From Immundisolibacter sp. (GTDB lineage: Bacteria > Pseudomonadota > Gammaproteobacteria > Immundisolibacterales > Immundisolibacteraceae): 64,000 nt of DNA. The stretch spans positions 1 to 64,000 of the forward strand of contig NZ_JACIZD010000012.1 in NCBI RefSeq assembly GCF_014359565.1, in the 5' to 3' direction. The notes below the pieces were generated by a model that was not told the origin of the DNA, ran no database searches, and saw nothing but the letters and a program-made list of their open reading frames with translations. Within the stretch, counting starts at the first letter, position 1; the number at the start of each line of letters is the position of its first letter. The position numbers and the translations under genes were made by a program. Positions 13,137 through 29,741 of the stretch are shown here, piece by piece.

Positions 13137-13378
13137 TAACGCCCCCGCCGCGAATCCGCAGAGCCCGGCACAGCATTCGGCCCGAGGGCGGGCCTCCCAC
13201 CGGGGTGGTCCTGTGGGAGCGGCGCGCACCATTCGGCCCGAGGGCGGGCCTCCCACAGCGTTTTCCTGTGGGAGCGGCGCCCCCGCCGCGAATCTCCCGT
13301 CGCCGGCGCAGCATTCGGCCCGAGGGCGGGTCTCCCGTCGGGTCGTCCTGTGGGAGCGGTCCCCCCGCCGCGAAAAAA
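13137..13378. repeat. REP-like palindromic block
   Basis: About three units of the REP family: hairpin cores GGCCCG/CGGGCC near 13170-13190, 13231-13246 and 13316-13330, alternating with GTGGGAGCGG arms. It separates the DUF4160-DUF2442 pair from the flippase gene. Several reading frames across it on both strands are repeat artefacts. Confidence 0.85.
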
Positions 13379-24082: not shown

Positions 24083-24321
24083 AGCCCTTGGGAGTGGGAG
24101 GCCCGCCCTCGGGCCGAATCTTCACTCAAGATTCAAGATTCAAGATTCAAGATTCAAGATTCAAGATTTTGCCTTGGTTGAATGCGAGGGCGGGGGGGGT
24201 TGGATAGTTGGATTATGGGTCGAGCGGCGATTACAACTGGACAACTCCGTGGGAGGCCCGCCCTCGGGCCGAATCTTCGGGTGTGGGGATCGGGCTTTGG
24301 ATTCGCGGCGGGGGCGCCGCT
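24083..24321. repeat. REP-like units interrupted by IS110, with a heptamer repeat
   Basis: Arms GTGGGAGG...GGCCGAATCTTC occur at about 24094-24122 and 24250-24280, then the opposite arm GGATTCGCGGCGGGGGCGCC ends at 24319. Between them lies the heptamer tract (24126-24167). The last unit stops at GCGCCGCT (24314-24321), where the IS110 element begins; its other half resumes at 25503. Confidence 0.85.
24126..24167. repeat. Six perfect tandem copies of TCAAGAT
   Basis: Six uninterrupted copies of the heptamer TCAAGAT, followed by TTT. It lies in non-coding sequence between two REP arms, after the last glycosyltransferase. A length-variable tract by nature; no gene spans it. Confidence 0.95.
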
Positions 24322-24329
24322 TGTATGTT

Positions 24330-24512
24330 TGGTCTTGGCAAGTCAAAAAGGGCTTGCCGGGGCGGAGGGACCAGCGCCGCATCTGGCCGCAGGCACAGAC
24401 CGTGGGAGAGCTCGTCCCGCCCCTCACCTTCAGGCGCCCATATGGAATCTATCGGCAGCGACCGACGATTAAAGGCAAGCCAGCGCAACGGTGAGCTCCC
24501 GGCAAGCACGAC
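24330..24512 (+). ncRNA. Predicted bridge RNA of the IS110 element
   Basis: Position matches the IS621 bridge RNA, upstream of the recombinase. A 5' hairpin pairs GGCAAG (24337-24342) with CTTGCC (24353-24358). A following loop is closed by GGC...GGGA (24361-24370) with TCCC-GCC (24415-24421). Within it, GCGCCGC (24374-24380) equals the left target top strand and CCGTGGGAG (24400-24408) is the exact complement of the right target CTCCCACGG. Further on, GGAATCT (24444-24450) matches the element's own right end GAATCT (25499-25504), as a left donor guide should; GGCAAG at 24474-24479 is a weaker right donor guide candidate. Ends are approximate and expression is not shown. Confidence 0.65.
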
Positions 24513-24530
24513 ACACGCTAACCGGGAGAG

Positions 24531-25487
24531 ATGACGATGGCAATGGCAGTCGAGACGCTACAACTGGGGGTTGATGTGGCCAAGGCCGAGCTGGTGCTCT
24601 GCCAAGGCTGGGATGAGCAGCTGGTGACGCTGGTCAACGAGCGGCGCGCGATCCGCTCCTATCTGAAGCACCTGTCGGGGCCGACGGCGCTGGCAGTGGA
24701 GGCGACCAACCGGTTCCATCTGGCACTGGTCGAGGAGGCACAGGCGCTGGGCCACACGGTGTATGTGGTCGACGGCTACCGACTCAACGCCTACCGCAAG
24801 AGCATTGGCGGCCGGGCCAAGACCGACGCAAGCGATGCCCGGCTTCTGCTGCGCTATCTGCGCCATGAGCAGACCTCGCTGCGGCCGTGGAGCCCGCCGC
24901 CGGCCGGCTACAACCGCCTGATCCGGCTACTGCGCCGGCGCGCCAGCCTGATCCAGGCCAAGGTGGCGCTGACCCAAAGCCTCCAGGAGCTGCCCGAGCT
25001 CAAGGCCGCCGTGCGCAGCCTGCTGCGCCAGTTCGCCCGGCTCGACCTGTTGATCCAGACGCGGCTGCGCCAGGCACTGGCCGAGCATGGCTGGGCGGCG
25101 GATGCCCAGCGCTGCCAGGCGATCGAGGGCATCGGCCCGCTCACCGCCGCCGGCCTGGTCACCGTCTTCCGCCGCGGCGCCTTCCACAGCAGCGATGCCT
25201 TTATCGCCTTCTTGGGACTCGACGTGCGCGTGCGCGATTCCGGCCAATTCACTGGCCGGCGCAAGCTCACCAAACAGGGCGATCCGGAGCTGCGCCGGCT
25301 GCTCCACAACGCAGCCATGGCCGCCTGCCGCTGCGCTACCTGGCAGCCGTTCTACCAGCGCTACCGAAACCGCGGCCTGAGCACCACCCAGTGCCTGGTC
25401 ATCCTGGCCCGCAAGCTCGCCCGTATCGCCTTCGCGCTCCTCAAAAACCAGTCGACCTATCAGCCCAACTCCACCCCGATGCCTTGA
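24531..25487 (+). CDS. IS110-family transposase (DEDD recombinase)
   Basis: 318 aa. The N-terminal RuvC-like domain has LGVDVAKAEL (Asp15), AVEATNRFH and the KTDASDARLLLRYL motif (Asp102, Asp105); a coiled region follows, then the C-terminal Tnp domain with IEGIGPLTAAGL and DSGQFTGRRKLTKQGDPEL. Ser237 in DSGQF is the probable catalytic serine. With a bridge RNA it would recombine donor and target at the CT dinucleotide. The frame is intact, so the element may be active. ATG 24537 has better spacing from the GGGAG at 24524 than ATG 24531. Confidence 0.92.
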   Translation: MTMAMAVETLQLGVDVAKAELVLCQGWDEQLVTLVNERRAIRSYLKHLSGPTALAVEATNRFHLALVEEAQALGHTVYVVDGYRLNAYRKSIGGRAKTDASDARLLLRYLRHEQTSLRPWSPPPAGYNRLIRLLRRRASLIQAKVALTQSLQELPELKAAVRSLLRQFARLDLLIQTRLRQALAEHGWAADAQRCQAIEGIGPLTAAGLVTVFRRGAFHSSDAFIAFLGLDVRVRDSGQFTGRRKLTKQGDPELRRLLHNAAMAACRCATWQPFYQRYRNRGLSTTQCLVILARKLARIAFALLKNQSTYQPNSTPMP

Positions 25488-25502
25488 CCTCGAACATAGA
25501 AT

Positions 25503-25715
25503 CTCCCACGGGGGCTTCCACAGGGGGTTTTTTCTGTGGGAGGGCCATGTCGCGCTGCGCGCTCCTCGCAACGACGGTGTGGGACGTTGTACGTCGGCGG
25601 GCAGGGCGCGCTGCGCCGCGCAGCACCAACACCCCGTTCGCAACAAAAACCGCCGTCGTCCTGAGGAGCGCAGCGACGTGAGGGCCTTGTCTTTCCGGCT
25701 GTTGCGCCCTCTGGC
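25503..25715. repeat. REP half-unit plus two dispersed repeat families
   Basis: The right half of the REP unit split by IS110 covers about 25503-25545. A 28-bp sequence at 25550-25577 recurs exactly at 26553-26580. A second family (CGTCGTCCTGAGGAGCGCAG onward, 25654-25683) recurs at 26446 and, inverted, at 27483. No gene is seen in this gap. Confidence 0.8.
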
Positions 25716-26105
25716 TCAGGCGGGCTGAACCGGCAGTGCTCTATGACGCGCAGCAGCGAGAAGGCCGGCATCCCGTGTCAGAAGTACGAGTCCTTCGACG
25801 CAGGCGGTTGCCAGCAGCACACGGTCGAATGGGTCCGGATGCTCCAGGCCGAGCGCACGGCAAGCCTCCACATGGCTGGCGGCGAGCGGCACGATCCGAA
25901 AGCCTTGGTCTTCCAGGCTGGCAGCGAGGGCAGTGTCGGGCAGCGGCAGTTTTCCGCGCGCGTTTTTGAGCACCATCTCCCACAGCGTGGCTGCACTGAC
26001 GGCGCATTGCTCGTTGGCGATCAGTTTTCTGGTGGTGCGCCCAAGGTGGGCTGCGTCGGTCATCCACCAGTAGACCAGCTGTGTGTCGAGCAGGTAAGCG
26101 GTCAT
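25716..26105 (-). CDS. vapC: VapC-like PIN-domain ribonuclease toxin
   Basis: 129 aa PIN domain. Acidic residues of the active site are present: Asp7 in YLLDTQLVYWW, Glu in SAATLWEMVLK, Asp in HPDPFDRVLLATA and Asp in LLTRDAGL. It would cleave RNA when freed from the antitoxin. The start overlaps the antitoxin stop by 4 bases (ATGA), the usual order antitoxin-toxin on the minus strand. Sits within the repeat-rich accessory island. Confidence 0.88.
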   Translation of the reverse strand: MTAYLLDTQLVYWWMTDAAHLGRTTRKLIANEQCAVSAATLWEMVLKNARGKLPLPDTALAASLEDQGFRIVPLAASHVEACRALGLEHPDPFDRVLLATACVEGLVLLTRDAGLLAAARHRALPVQPA

Positions 26106-26347
26106 TCCGGGTCGTTGCCGACCAGCCCATCGGCGAGCTCGCGGTTGGCGGCGGCATCATCCCAGTCAGGGGCCGGTGGCGGCAGGCCGCGCCACGCGCC
26201 TGGCTTTCGATGCACGCGCGGCTCCTGTGCCTTGACCAGCCGCACCACGGGCGTGCCGTTGCGCGCGATGATGACTTCTTCTCCCGCCAGGGCGGCCTTT
26301 ACCAGCTTTGAGAGCTGATTTTTCGCTTCCAGAATGTTGACTTGCAT
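26102..26347 (-). CDS. vapB: Phd/YefM-type antitoxin of the VapC-like toxin
   Basis: 81 aa. MQVNILEAKNQLSKLVKAAL with GEEVIIARNGTPVVRLV is the Phd/YefM DNA-binding fold; the C-terminal tail (RGLPPPAPDWDDAAANRELA) would wrap the PIN toxin. The longer open frame upstream runs through repeat sequence, so the ATG at 26347 is preferred. Probably autoregulates the pair. Confidence 0.87.
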   Translation of the reverse strand: MQVNILEAKNQLSKLVKAALAGEEVIIARNGTPVVRLVKAQEPRVHRKPGAWRGLPPPAPDWDDAAANRELADGLVGNDPE

Positions 26348-26872
26348 GGCTGTGTCCAGACTGTCAGGGGCAGGTGATGGTAGCAAGCGCTGGCCAGGCT
26401 GGCCAGACTGCCCCGTCGTCCTGAGTAGCGCAGCAACAACAACTCCGTCGTCCTGAGGAGCGCAGCGACGTGAGGACCTTGCCTTTCCGGCCGGTACCGC
26501 CAACCTTTCCGGCTGGTACCGTCCAGGCGCAACCAAGGGCAAGGTTGCCACGTCGCGCTGCGCGCTCCTCGCAACGACGGGGTGGGGTGGTGCCTGCGGG
26601 AGGCCCGGTCCCGGGCCGAATTTTTCAGCGAAAACCGCATGTCGTGTGGTGGGGTTGTCCTATCGTCCAATGGCCGGGACCTGCCCCTCGCCTAGACTCC
26701 GTCTCAATCCGCCACGGTACGGTGGACAGGAGGCACAGGCGTCACCCTCCGGTGCGGCAGTGGTGGATGAACGGGCGCTCATTGGCCTGTGGCAGTAATC
26801 GGGATGTCAGAATTGCAGTGCTAAAGTCGCCCCGCAAGTGCGCGGCGTCTCAGCCAACATGAGGGATTTGCA
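26348..26872. other. Repeat-rich gap upstream of the PEP-CTERM gene
   Basis: 525 bp with no gene. It holds a partial and a full copy of the CGTCGTCCTGAGGAG repeat (26412-26436 and 26446-26483), the 28-bp repeat (26553-26580) and, from about 26690 to 26770, a stretch with several short inverted repeats (CCACGGTACGGTGG; GGAGG...CCTCC) that may form a structured leader or a remnant. AT content rises towards 26800, where the promoter of the PEP-CTERM gene should lie. Confidence 0.5.
26446..26483 (+). repeat. 38-bp repeat, left copy of a perfect inverted pair
   Basis: This 38-bp sequence is found again, exactly and inverted, at 27475-27512. The two copies enclose the PEP-CTERM gene at 26873-27409. 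A third, diverged copy lies at 25654-25691. Read directly by comparing both strands. Confidence 0.9.
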
Positions 26873-27409
26873 GTGAAGAAAAATATTGGTGCTTTGTTCC
26901 TGACAGCCGCCGTGGCATATGCCGGCGCTGCTTCGGCGGACACCATCGTTTACTACGCCGAGACTGGCGCTGGTGGTATTCGACAGGATGTTGATGTGAC
27001 GTTGACGTCCCCAACTACGCGAAACATCTCCATTGCCTACGACAGTTCGCTGTGGGCCTCGATCACCTCTGCGACGCTGACCGTGTTGTTGGGCGGCGAC
27101 CGGCTTGATGTGCAGCGGGAATTCGCGGACGTGGCCACGATTGAAGGCGTTGATCCGTTTGTCGGCAATGTGGAAATTGATGGTACCGCCACGCAGGCGT
27201 TCTGGGCCATCGATGTTGCTGACAAACTTCTGGCGCCCGATCATTTCACTCCGCTTATGTTCACGCTCAAGGCCGTTAGCGGAGATTTCGACTATCGCAA
27301 CGCACGGTTGACGGTGAATTTCACCCCGGTTCCCGAGCCCGCCACGACTGCCCTGCTGGGCAGCGGCCTGCTGGTAGCGGGGCTGGCGCTGCGTCGACGC
27401 CCTTCCTGA
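26873..27409 (+). CDS. PEP-CTERM sorting-signal protein
   Basis: 178 aa. Signal peptide ALFLTAAVAYAGAASADT, a beta-rich middle part of no family I recognise, then a C-terminal tripartite PEP-CTERM signal: VPEPATT (residues 153-159), a hydrophobic helix (ALLGSGLLVAGLAL) and the basic RRRPS. It is the only exosortase substrate in the window and would be cleaved at the PEP motif by the exosortase encoded at 7483. It is not cotranscribed with the eps genes and sits between perfect 38-bp inverted repeats. GAGGG at 26860-26864 is the likely ribosome site. Confidence 0.9.
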   Translation: MKKNIGALFLTAAVAYAGAASADTIVYYAETGAGGIRQDVDVTLTSPTTRNISIAYDSSLWASITSATLTVLLGGDRLDVQREFADVATIEGVDPFVGNVEIDGTATQAFWAIDVADKLLAPDHFTPLMFTLKAVSGDFDYRNARLTVNFTPVPEPATTALLGSGLLVAGLALRRRPS

Positions 27410-27430
27410 TCGGTCGGGTCTGCGTTATGC

Positions 27431-27458
27431 GGCGCGGCGCTCATTCGGGCGCCGCGCC
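27431..27458 (+). terminator. Strong hairpin after the PEP-CTERM gene
   Basis: GGCGCGGCGC (27431-27440) pairs perfectly with GCGCCGCGCC (27449-27458) across an 8-base loop, 21 bases after the stop codon. The following tail (CTGTCTGT) is only weakly T-rich, so termination may be partial. Confidence 0.65.
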
Positions 27459-27474
27459 CTGTCTGTAGAGAGAT

Positions 27475-27512
27475 GGCAAGGTCCTCACGTCGCTGCGCTC
27501 CTCAGGACGACG
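27475..27512 (-). repeat. 38-bp repeat, right (inverted) copy
   Basis: Exact reverse complement of 26446-26483. It starts 66 bases after the PEP-CTERM stop codon and leads straight into the REP array. Confidence 0.9.
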
Positions 27513-27534
27513 GGGTGTTGGTGTGGCGCGGTGC

Positions 27535-28200
27535 GGTGCGGATTCGCGGCGGGGGCGCCGCTCCCACGGGGGGCTTCCACAGCGGCTTTTCCTGTGGGAG
27601 GCCCGCCCTCGGGCCGAATCTTCGGGTGCGGCGGGCGCGGTCCGGATTCGCGGCGGGGGCGCCGCTCCCACGGGAGGCTTCCACAGCGGCTTTTCCTGTG
27701 GGAGGCCCGCCCTCGGGCCGAATCTTCGGGTGCGGCGGGCGCGGTGCGGATTCGCGGCGGGGCGCCGATCCCACGGGAGCCTTCCACAGCGGCTTTTCCT
27801 GTGGGAGGCCCGCCCTCGGGCCGAATCTTCGGGTGCGGCGAGCGCGGTGCGGATTCGCGGCGGGGGCGCCGATCCCACGGGGGGCTTCCACAGCGGCTTT
27901 TCCTGTGGGAGGACCGCCCTCGGGCCGAATCTTCGGGTGCGGCGGGCGCGGTGCGGATTCGCGGCGGGGGCGCCGCTCCCACGGGCTCCCACGGGAGGCT
28001 TCCACGGCGGCTTTTCCTGTGGGAGGCCCGCCCTCGGGCCGAATCTTCGGGTGCGGCGGGCGCGGTGCGAATTCGCGGCGGGGGCGCCGCTCCCACGGGA
28101 GGCTTCCACAGCGGCTTTTCCTGTGGGAGGCCCGCCCTCGGGCCGAATCTTCGGGTGCGGCGGGCGCGGTCCGGATTTGCGGCGGGGGCGCCGATCCCGC
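27535..28200. repeat. Tandem array of seven 104-bp REP-type units
   Basis: Unit starts (GATTCGCGGCGGGGGCGCCG or close variants) fall at 27541, 27645, 27749, 27852, 27956, 28070 and 28174, giving spacings of 103-104 bp and one of 114 bp caused by a duplicated CTCCCACGGG. Each unit has arm 1 (GCGGCGGGGGCGCC...CCCACGGG), CTTCCACAGCGGCTTTTCC, and arm 2 (GTGGGAGGCCCGCC with GGGCCGAATC). Units alternate between CCGCTCCCACGG, the IS110 target sequence, and CCGATCCCACGG. Long frames on both strands here are artefacts. Bases 28200-28391 hold no further gene. Confidence 0.93.
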
Positions 28201-28391
28201 GGTGTCGCTCGCACAAGGGTTGAGAGCAAGCGGCTGCCGGCATCGAGGCGGCTTCCGGCGCGACGGTGCTTGCCGTAGGGCGATGCTTGGCTGACGGTGC
28301 GCCTTGTGGCGGCGGGCGGGGCGGCCGGATAATGCCGGCCCGGCCGCGCGCACCGTCGCGCTGCCAACGACCCGATCCGACTCCCGCGTAC

Positions 28392-29741
28392 ATGACACCC
28401 AGCGAACGGCGCGTTACCGGCACCCTGTCGGCCATCTACATACTGCGCATGCTGGGGCTGTTCCTGCTGCTGCCGGTGCTGGCGCTGTACGCCGAGACGC
28501 TGCCCGGCGCCACGCCGGCCATGATCGGTCTGGCACTCGGCATGTACGGCCTGACGCAGGCGGTGTTCGGCATTCCCTTCGGCAGCGCGTCGGACCGGTT
28601 CGGGCGCAAGCCGGTCATCACGGCTGGCCTGTTGCTGTTCAGCGCCGGCAGCGTGCTGGCGGCGGCTGCGCACAGCGTGACCGTCATCATCGCCGGCCGG
28701 GCGCTGCAGGGCGCAGGCGCGGTGGCGGCGCCGATCATGGCGCTGCTGGCCGATCTGCTGCGCCCGGAGCAACGCAGCAAGGGCATGGCCGCCATCGGCA
28801 TCAGCATCGGCGGGGCCTATCTGGTGTCGCTGCCGCTGGGGCCGGTGCTGGCGGCCTGGCTGACGGTGCCGGGCATTTTCCTGATGATCGCCGTGCTGGC
28901 GCTGGTCATGATCGGCCTGCTGTGGTGGCAGGTGCCAACCCCGGTGGTGTCGCGCGCGGTCAGCCGGCCGAGTGGGCAACTGCGCGTGGCGCTGAGCGAC
29001 CCGCATCTGCTGCGGCTGTACTTCAGCATCATGGCGCTGCACATCCTGATGACCGGCACGTTCGTGGTGCTGCCGCCGCTGCTGCGCGACAACCTGCACC
29101 TGCCGGCGGCGCAGCATCTGTGGCTGTATCTGCCGACCGTGCTGCTGTCGATCGCGGCCATGGTGCCGCTGATCGTCTACGCCGAGCGGCGCGCCCGCCT
29201 GAAGCAGGTGTTCGTGGCCATGGTGGGGCTGCTCACCGGCGGCCTGCTGGTGCTGCTGGAGGGCAATCACGTGCTGTGGGGCGTGGCGGCCGGGCTGCTG
29301 GCCTTCCTGATCGCGTTCAACGTGCTGGAGGCCACGCTGCCGTCCATGATGTCGCGCCTGGCACCCATGGCGGGTCGCGGGACGGCGATGGGCGTGTATT
29401 CCACGGCGCAGTTTCTGGGGGCTTTCATCGGCGGAGCAGGGGCCGGGTGGCTGCGTGGCCATCACGGCGCCACGGGTGTGCTGCTGGCCGGCCTTGCGCT
29501 GTGCGTGATCTGGCTGGCGATATCGCTTGGCCTGCAGGCACCGGCCCACCTGAAAACGCAGCTGGTCGACGTGGGTCGGTTGAGCCCCGAGCAGGCGCGC
29601 ACGCTGACCGATGAACTGTCGGCGCTGGTCGGCGTGGCCGAGGCGGTGGTGATTCCGGAGGAAGGTGTAGCCTACCTGCGGGTGGATGGGCAGCGGTTCG
29701 AGCCGGCCAGCCTGGAGCGGTTCTCGGCGGCGAAAATTTGA
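28392..29741 (+). CDS. YajR-like MFS transporter
   Basis: 449 aa, 12 transmembrane helices, major facilitator superfamily. The motif-A loop [16 protein letters not shown] and [20 protein letters not shown] (helix 4-5) are present. The last about 70 residues ([20 protein letters not shown] ...[14 protein letters not shown]) form a small soluble ferredoxin-like domain as in E. coli YajR. Inner-membrane drug/metabolite efflux is likely; substrate unknown. ATG 28392 lies outside the REP array. The transporter-ssb order is frequent in gammaproteobacteria. Confidence 0.87.

Follow-up and report, generated by a model that had tools for sequence, protein, structure and literature searches.

In Pseudomonas fluorescens SBW25, doublets of repetitive extragenic palindromic (REP) sequences that form hairpins (REPINs) occur in ordered tandem clusters, the largest of which comprises four REPINs and one REP over more than 700 bp (PMC3116915). 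In Stenotrophomonas, alternating REP modules are joined head to tail (PMC2817692). The targeting of REPs by insertion sequence (IS) elements of the IS110 family is likewise established (PMC1525189). Here we describe a tandem REP array at positions 27540–28200 of a 64,000-nucleotide stretch of Immundisolibacter sp. DNA (positions 1 to 64,000 of contig NZ_JACIZD010000012.1, assembly GCF_014359565.1; hereafter the window). The genus Immundisolibacter has been reported from oil-polluted soils. The array is very probably an ordered tandem REPIN cluster, that is, an array of the bacterial interspersed mosaic element (BIME) type, made by local amplification of REPINs that a REP-associated tyrosine transposase (RAYT) would have dispersed, and it most likely accumulated under no or weak selection.

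Structure of the array

The array contains 13 REPs, seven of class Y on the minus strand alternating with six of class X on the plus strand. The Y REP reads GTGGGAGCGGCGCCCCCGCCGCGAATC on the minus strand and the X REP reads GTGGGAGGCCCGCCCTCGGGCCGAATC on the plus strand. Each has a GTGGGAG head, a 6-bp stem and a 4-nt loop, which is the GT(A/G)G head and GC-rich palindrome of REPs; the head and tail are common to both classes, and the stems differ by compensated changes. In window coordinates, the parts are as follows.

27540–28200, no strand assigned: whole array, one Y and six X-linker-Y REPINs, 13 REPs
27543–27567, minus: Y REP of unit 1
27594–27618, plus: X REP of unit 1
27594–27671, plus: first complete 78-bp REPIN (X-linker-Y), used for folding
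27647–27671, minus: Y REP
about 27751–27774, minus: Y REP with a 1-bp deletion and an AT core
27854–27878, minus: Y REP with an AT core
27958–27982, minus: Y REP
27976–27995, plus: 10-bp duplication (GCTCCCACGG twice), which lengthens unit 5 to 114 bp
28072–28096, minus: Y REP
28176–28200, minus: degenerate Y REP with an AT core
27698, 27801, 27905, 28019 and 28123, plus: starts of the remaining X REPs

Tandem Repeats Finder delimits the repeat at 27520–28202 with a period of 104, 6.5 copies, a 92% match and a score of 1148. From unit to unit the spacing is, in order, 104, 104, 103, 104, 114 and 104, the single value of 114 being due to the duplicated 10 bp of unit 5. Six units are complete and a seventh is reduced to its first hairpin (Y); the array is best described as one Y in front and, after it, six REPINs of 78 bp in tandem, with spacers of about 26 bp between them, one of which is 36 bp. 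An initial annotation, made from the sequence alone, had noted seven units at 103–104 bp spacing with two hairpins each, single-base variants and an internal 10-bp duplication. The regularity is real, as are the duplication and the variants, units 3, 4 and 7 having CCGATCCC with its AT core and the other four (1, 2, 5 and 6) having CCGCTCCC; seven units can indeed be counted by their Y REPs, but the seventh has no X, so that the hairpins number 13 and not 14. The same annotation regarded the spacing as more ordered than is usual for REPs, which does not hold for REPINs, as they form ordered tandem clusters in SBW25 (PMC3116915).

The two inverted REPs of the unit lie at a fixed short distance and are predicted to form one fold, as REPINs do: taken as single-stranded DNA, each strand of the 78-bp REPIN folds into three arms (z = −1.8 and −2.6) closed by GTGGGAG/CTCCCAC. 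Elsewhere the corresponding length is about 64 bp.

X and Y REPs in the genome and their RAYT

Genome-wide, about 97 copies of X and about 79 of Y were found with up to 3 mismatches, which are numbers typical of high-copy REPs; since reversed-pattern controls gave 0 and 1 match, respectively, chance can be excluded. These copy numbers come from mismatch-tolerant pattern searches, as an error-tolerant scan undercounts (9 of the 13 array REPs). A degenerate Y pattern allowing no mismatches had matches in three of 37 genomes, all of this genus, and exact-pattern Y matches number 62 here and 48 in a congeneric genome that consists of a single contig (the sister genome). Of the Y matches listed, only those of this array show the CCGATCCC variants.

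About a dozen smaller tandem X/Y arrays with differing periods are scattered over the genome, two of them in the window.

172–421, no strand assigned: second X/Y tandem array, period 77
13224–13374, no strand assigned: third X/Y tandem array, period 82

Outside the window, where arrays were read from stretches around REP clusters, the periods are 133, 135, 117, 51, 78, 76 and 98, and one in the sister genome has a period of 76.

The genome also has RAYT genes. The Y1_Tnp cutoff is passed at four loci, and two of the three proteins tested pass NF047646 (REP-associated tyrosine transposase), the failing one being apparently frame-shifted. The RAYT at contig 4, 542–976, scores above the NF047646 cutoff and lies between X/Y REPs, as expected where a RAYT is flanked by the REPs of its own REPINs. 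Each RAYT has its own REP class as its closest flank; at other RAYT loci (L001, L002, L003, L129 and L131) these classes are GTAGGGCGGAATAG, GTAGGAGCCCGGC with GTAGGAGCGCAGC, and GTAGGAGCGGGCCATG. At L003 (contig 20, 20456–20871), the RAYT matches fall in two frames, which suggests a frame-shift. In the sister genome, the nearest homologues of the contig 4 RAYT share only 51–53% identity with it and have REPs of other classes beside them, and because the number of Y REPs is similar there, its X/Y REPs look orphaned.

Origin of the array

The starting point would have been the arrival of one 78-bp REPIN, with its inverted pair of GTGG-headed REPs (one X, one Y), between a PEP-CTERM gene and a major facilitator superfamily (MFS) gene. 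It was presumably moved there by the RAYT system, of which the genome has one matching copy, itself flanked by X/Y REPs; this step is inferred. Slippage during replication, unequal crossing-over or gene conversion would then have multiplied the REPIN locally, together with 26 bp next to it, giving units of 104 bp. Local amplification is suggested indirectly by periods that are specific to each array and by variants common to non-adjacent units. The periods differ from array to array, which favours amplification on the spot of a REPIN with its own flank over serial insertion of one standard unit, and the longest exact repeat within the array, 100 bp joining the non-adjacent units 2 and 6, makes a multi-unit duplication or gene conversion likely. 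Both observations bear out the expansion by recombination (or slippage) that was initially proposed.

Such a long internal repeat, in a draft genome (3.09 Mb in 27 contigs), might also mean that the array or its unit number is an artefact of assembly. This is very unlikely, considering that the units differ by point variants and that similar arrays are present in the single-contig sister genome; moreover, every 101-base word in the array is unique, and therefore reads longer than 101 bases could in principle assemble it.

Several points weigh against a locally amplified cluster of RAYT-dispersed REPINs. The action of a RAYT on X and Y REPs is presumed, and Y REPs are almost as numerous in the sister genome (48 versus 62), which has no close homologue of the contig 4 RAYT. 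The unit number is that of a single strain, and the array may have a selected function.

Genomic setting and possible functions

The array at 27540–28200 is extragenic, lying between the PEP-CTERM gene (stop 27409) and the MFS gene (start 28392) on the same strand. Among named relatives, the MFS protein is closest to one from Immundisolibacter sp. STE_186 (85% identity), and the sister genome carries it at 96%. Homology to the sister genome ends at about 27536 on the PEP-CTERM side, which is the left edge of the array, and restarts at about 28295 on the MFS side, near the right edge; the array is thus lineage-specific. The array is absent from the sister species compared, and in the sister genome the PEP-CTERM and MFS genes are each present without it. 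The two sides are not neighbours there, uvrA adjoining MFS instead. In the present genome, no X/Y REP was found in the stretch read next to uvrA (contig 21), so that this gives no support to a rearrangement by REP–REP recombination.

Could the array act as a transcription barrier or 3′-end stabiliser for the PEP-CTERM transcript, shielding the downstream MFS gene? Its position between two same-strand genes and its 13 strong hairpins would suit such a role, whereas no intrinsic terminator (hairpin and T run) was found in 27300–28500, and the sister genome does without the array at both genes, so that we regard this as unlikely. Still less likely, and suggested by analogy, is a DNA–protein site as in the BIMEs of Escherichia coli, with putative binding of gyrase or integration host factor (IHF). 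BIMEs and REPs are reported as binding sites of several proteins (PMC2817692), but the REP sequence is unlike E. coli REPs, and a search of the array that allowed one mismatch gave no IHF-like motif, which speaks against the IHF-type site of the initial annotation and against a likeness to IHF-binding BIMEs. Most likely, mobile mini-elements have piled up here and serve no dedicated role; transcript ends or the stability of mRNA may be affected, but this would be secondary.

A protein-coding array was rejected: all six frames are open across 27540–28203, and hence the resulting open reading frames of up to 787 aa are spurious and no evidence of genes; they could mislead annotation. An Rfam search of the window returned nothing that reached its family's gathering score. 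Another palindromic repeat family, of the GTCCTGAGGAGCGCAGCGACGTGAGGACC type, is found in the window at 25550–25690, 26420–26590 and 27470–27520, one copy being directly left of the array, and has dozens of copies in the sister genome. A likely toxin–antitoxin pair, a PIN-domain protein with a Phd/YefM antitoxin, lies on the minus strand at 25716–26350.

An IS110 element inside a Y REP

The genome's only close copy of an IS110 element is situated 2–3 kb upstream of the array, inside a Y REP.

24094–24118, plus: X REP standing alone, upstream of the REPIN that bears IS110
24249–24321, plus: X REP, linker and left part of the Y REP interrupted by IS110, 87–90% identical to array units
24322–25502, plus: body of the IS110-family element in the Y REP, with a CT core on both sides (24320–24321 and 25503–25504)
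24374–24408, plus: predicted target-binding loop of the IS110 left-end RNA, GCGCCGC and CCGTGGGAG
24531–25487, plus: gene of the IS110 RNA-guided transposase (DEDD_Tnp_IS110, Transposase_20; NF033542)
25503–25545, plus: right rest of the Y REP, spacer and truncated X, about 87% match to the array spacer

A perfect 7-bp tandem repeat (TCAAGAT, 6.1 copies) occupies 24126–24168, immediately after an X REP.

The transposase is above the cutoffs of PF01548, PF02371 and NF033542. At an unrelated locus of the sister genome, a copy with a 99%-identical transposase likewise sits directly after GCACCGCT and before the CTCCCAC of a Y REP. These are two independent IS110 insertions at the same base of the Y REP with a CT core, both showing the fixed target and dinucleotide core of the IS110 family. 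The left end of the element has a predicted fold of a 5′ hairpin and two further domains (z = −2.5). Within it, GCGCCGC (24374–24380, 7 nt) is identical to the left target of the Y REP and CCGTGGGAG (24400–24408, 9 nt) is complementary to the right target, and both matches were reached in only 2 of 5000 dinucleotide shuffles. A candidate left donor guide matches at 8 of 9 positions; no right donor guide was found in the left end.

Judging by the interrupted sister REPIN upstream, the Y REPs of the array are candidate targets of the RNA-guided IS110 element. The initial suggestion of an IS110 landing pad therefore stands for the repeat family, with its two insertions at one base of Y, but not for the array itself, in which no IS110 copy was found. 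It might further be supposed that the array is a dedicated sink, retained for diverting IS110 insertions from genes, on the strength of the two insertions and the guide-like match to Y. With no IS110 in the array, an AT in place of the CT core in three of its seven Y REPs and one close IS110 copy per genome, such a role is highly improbable. An equally remote idea is that the CCGATCCC variants, by abolishing the CT core, spread among the units as immunity against the local IS110, a conflict between two mobile elements being fixed by copy-number change.

Comparison with known systems

Ordered tandem REPIN arrays have already been described, and the Immundisolibacter array is a further example, which extends them to this genus. 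The ordered tandem arrangement is shared with the SBW25 clusters, from which the array differs in genus and REP sequence, in having six REPINs and one REP, and in that its REPIN is built from two REP classes, X and Y (PMC3116915). The BIMEs of Enterobacteriaceae and Stenotrophomonas are alike in their regular spacing, alternating orientation and head-to-tail modules, in REPs with a GT(A/G)G head and a GC-rich palindrome behind it, and in a REP-flanked RAYT (PMC2817692). Unlike those BIMEs, the array lacks an IHF-like motif, and its REP form is closest to the GTGGGAG REPs of Pseudomonas putida.

Three mobile parts are linked here: the X/Y REPINs, the RAYT that goes with them at another place in the genome, and an IS110 element with a predicted guide reading Y. 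Should the number of units prove to differ among strains, arrays of this kind could be used as markers for typing, and IS110 and the Y REP offer a natural, testable guide–target pair. Insertion at a fixed REP base with a 2-bp core on both sides is common to this element and IS621, ISPpu9, ISPpu10 and ISPa11 (PMC1525189, PMC11208160). Its CT core is that of IS621, and the strand logic of the guide-like left-end segments relative to the target is also as in IS621 (PMC11208160); what sets the Immundisolibacter element apart from all four is a different predicted guide, by which it would recognise the Y REP.
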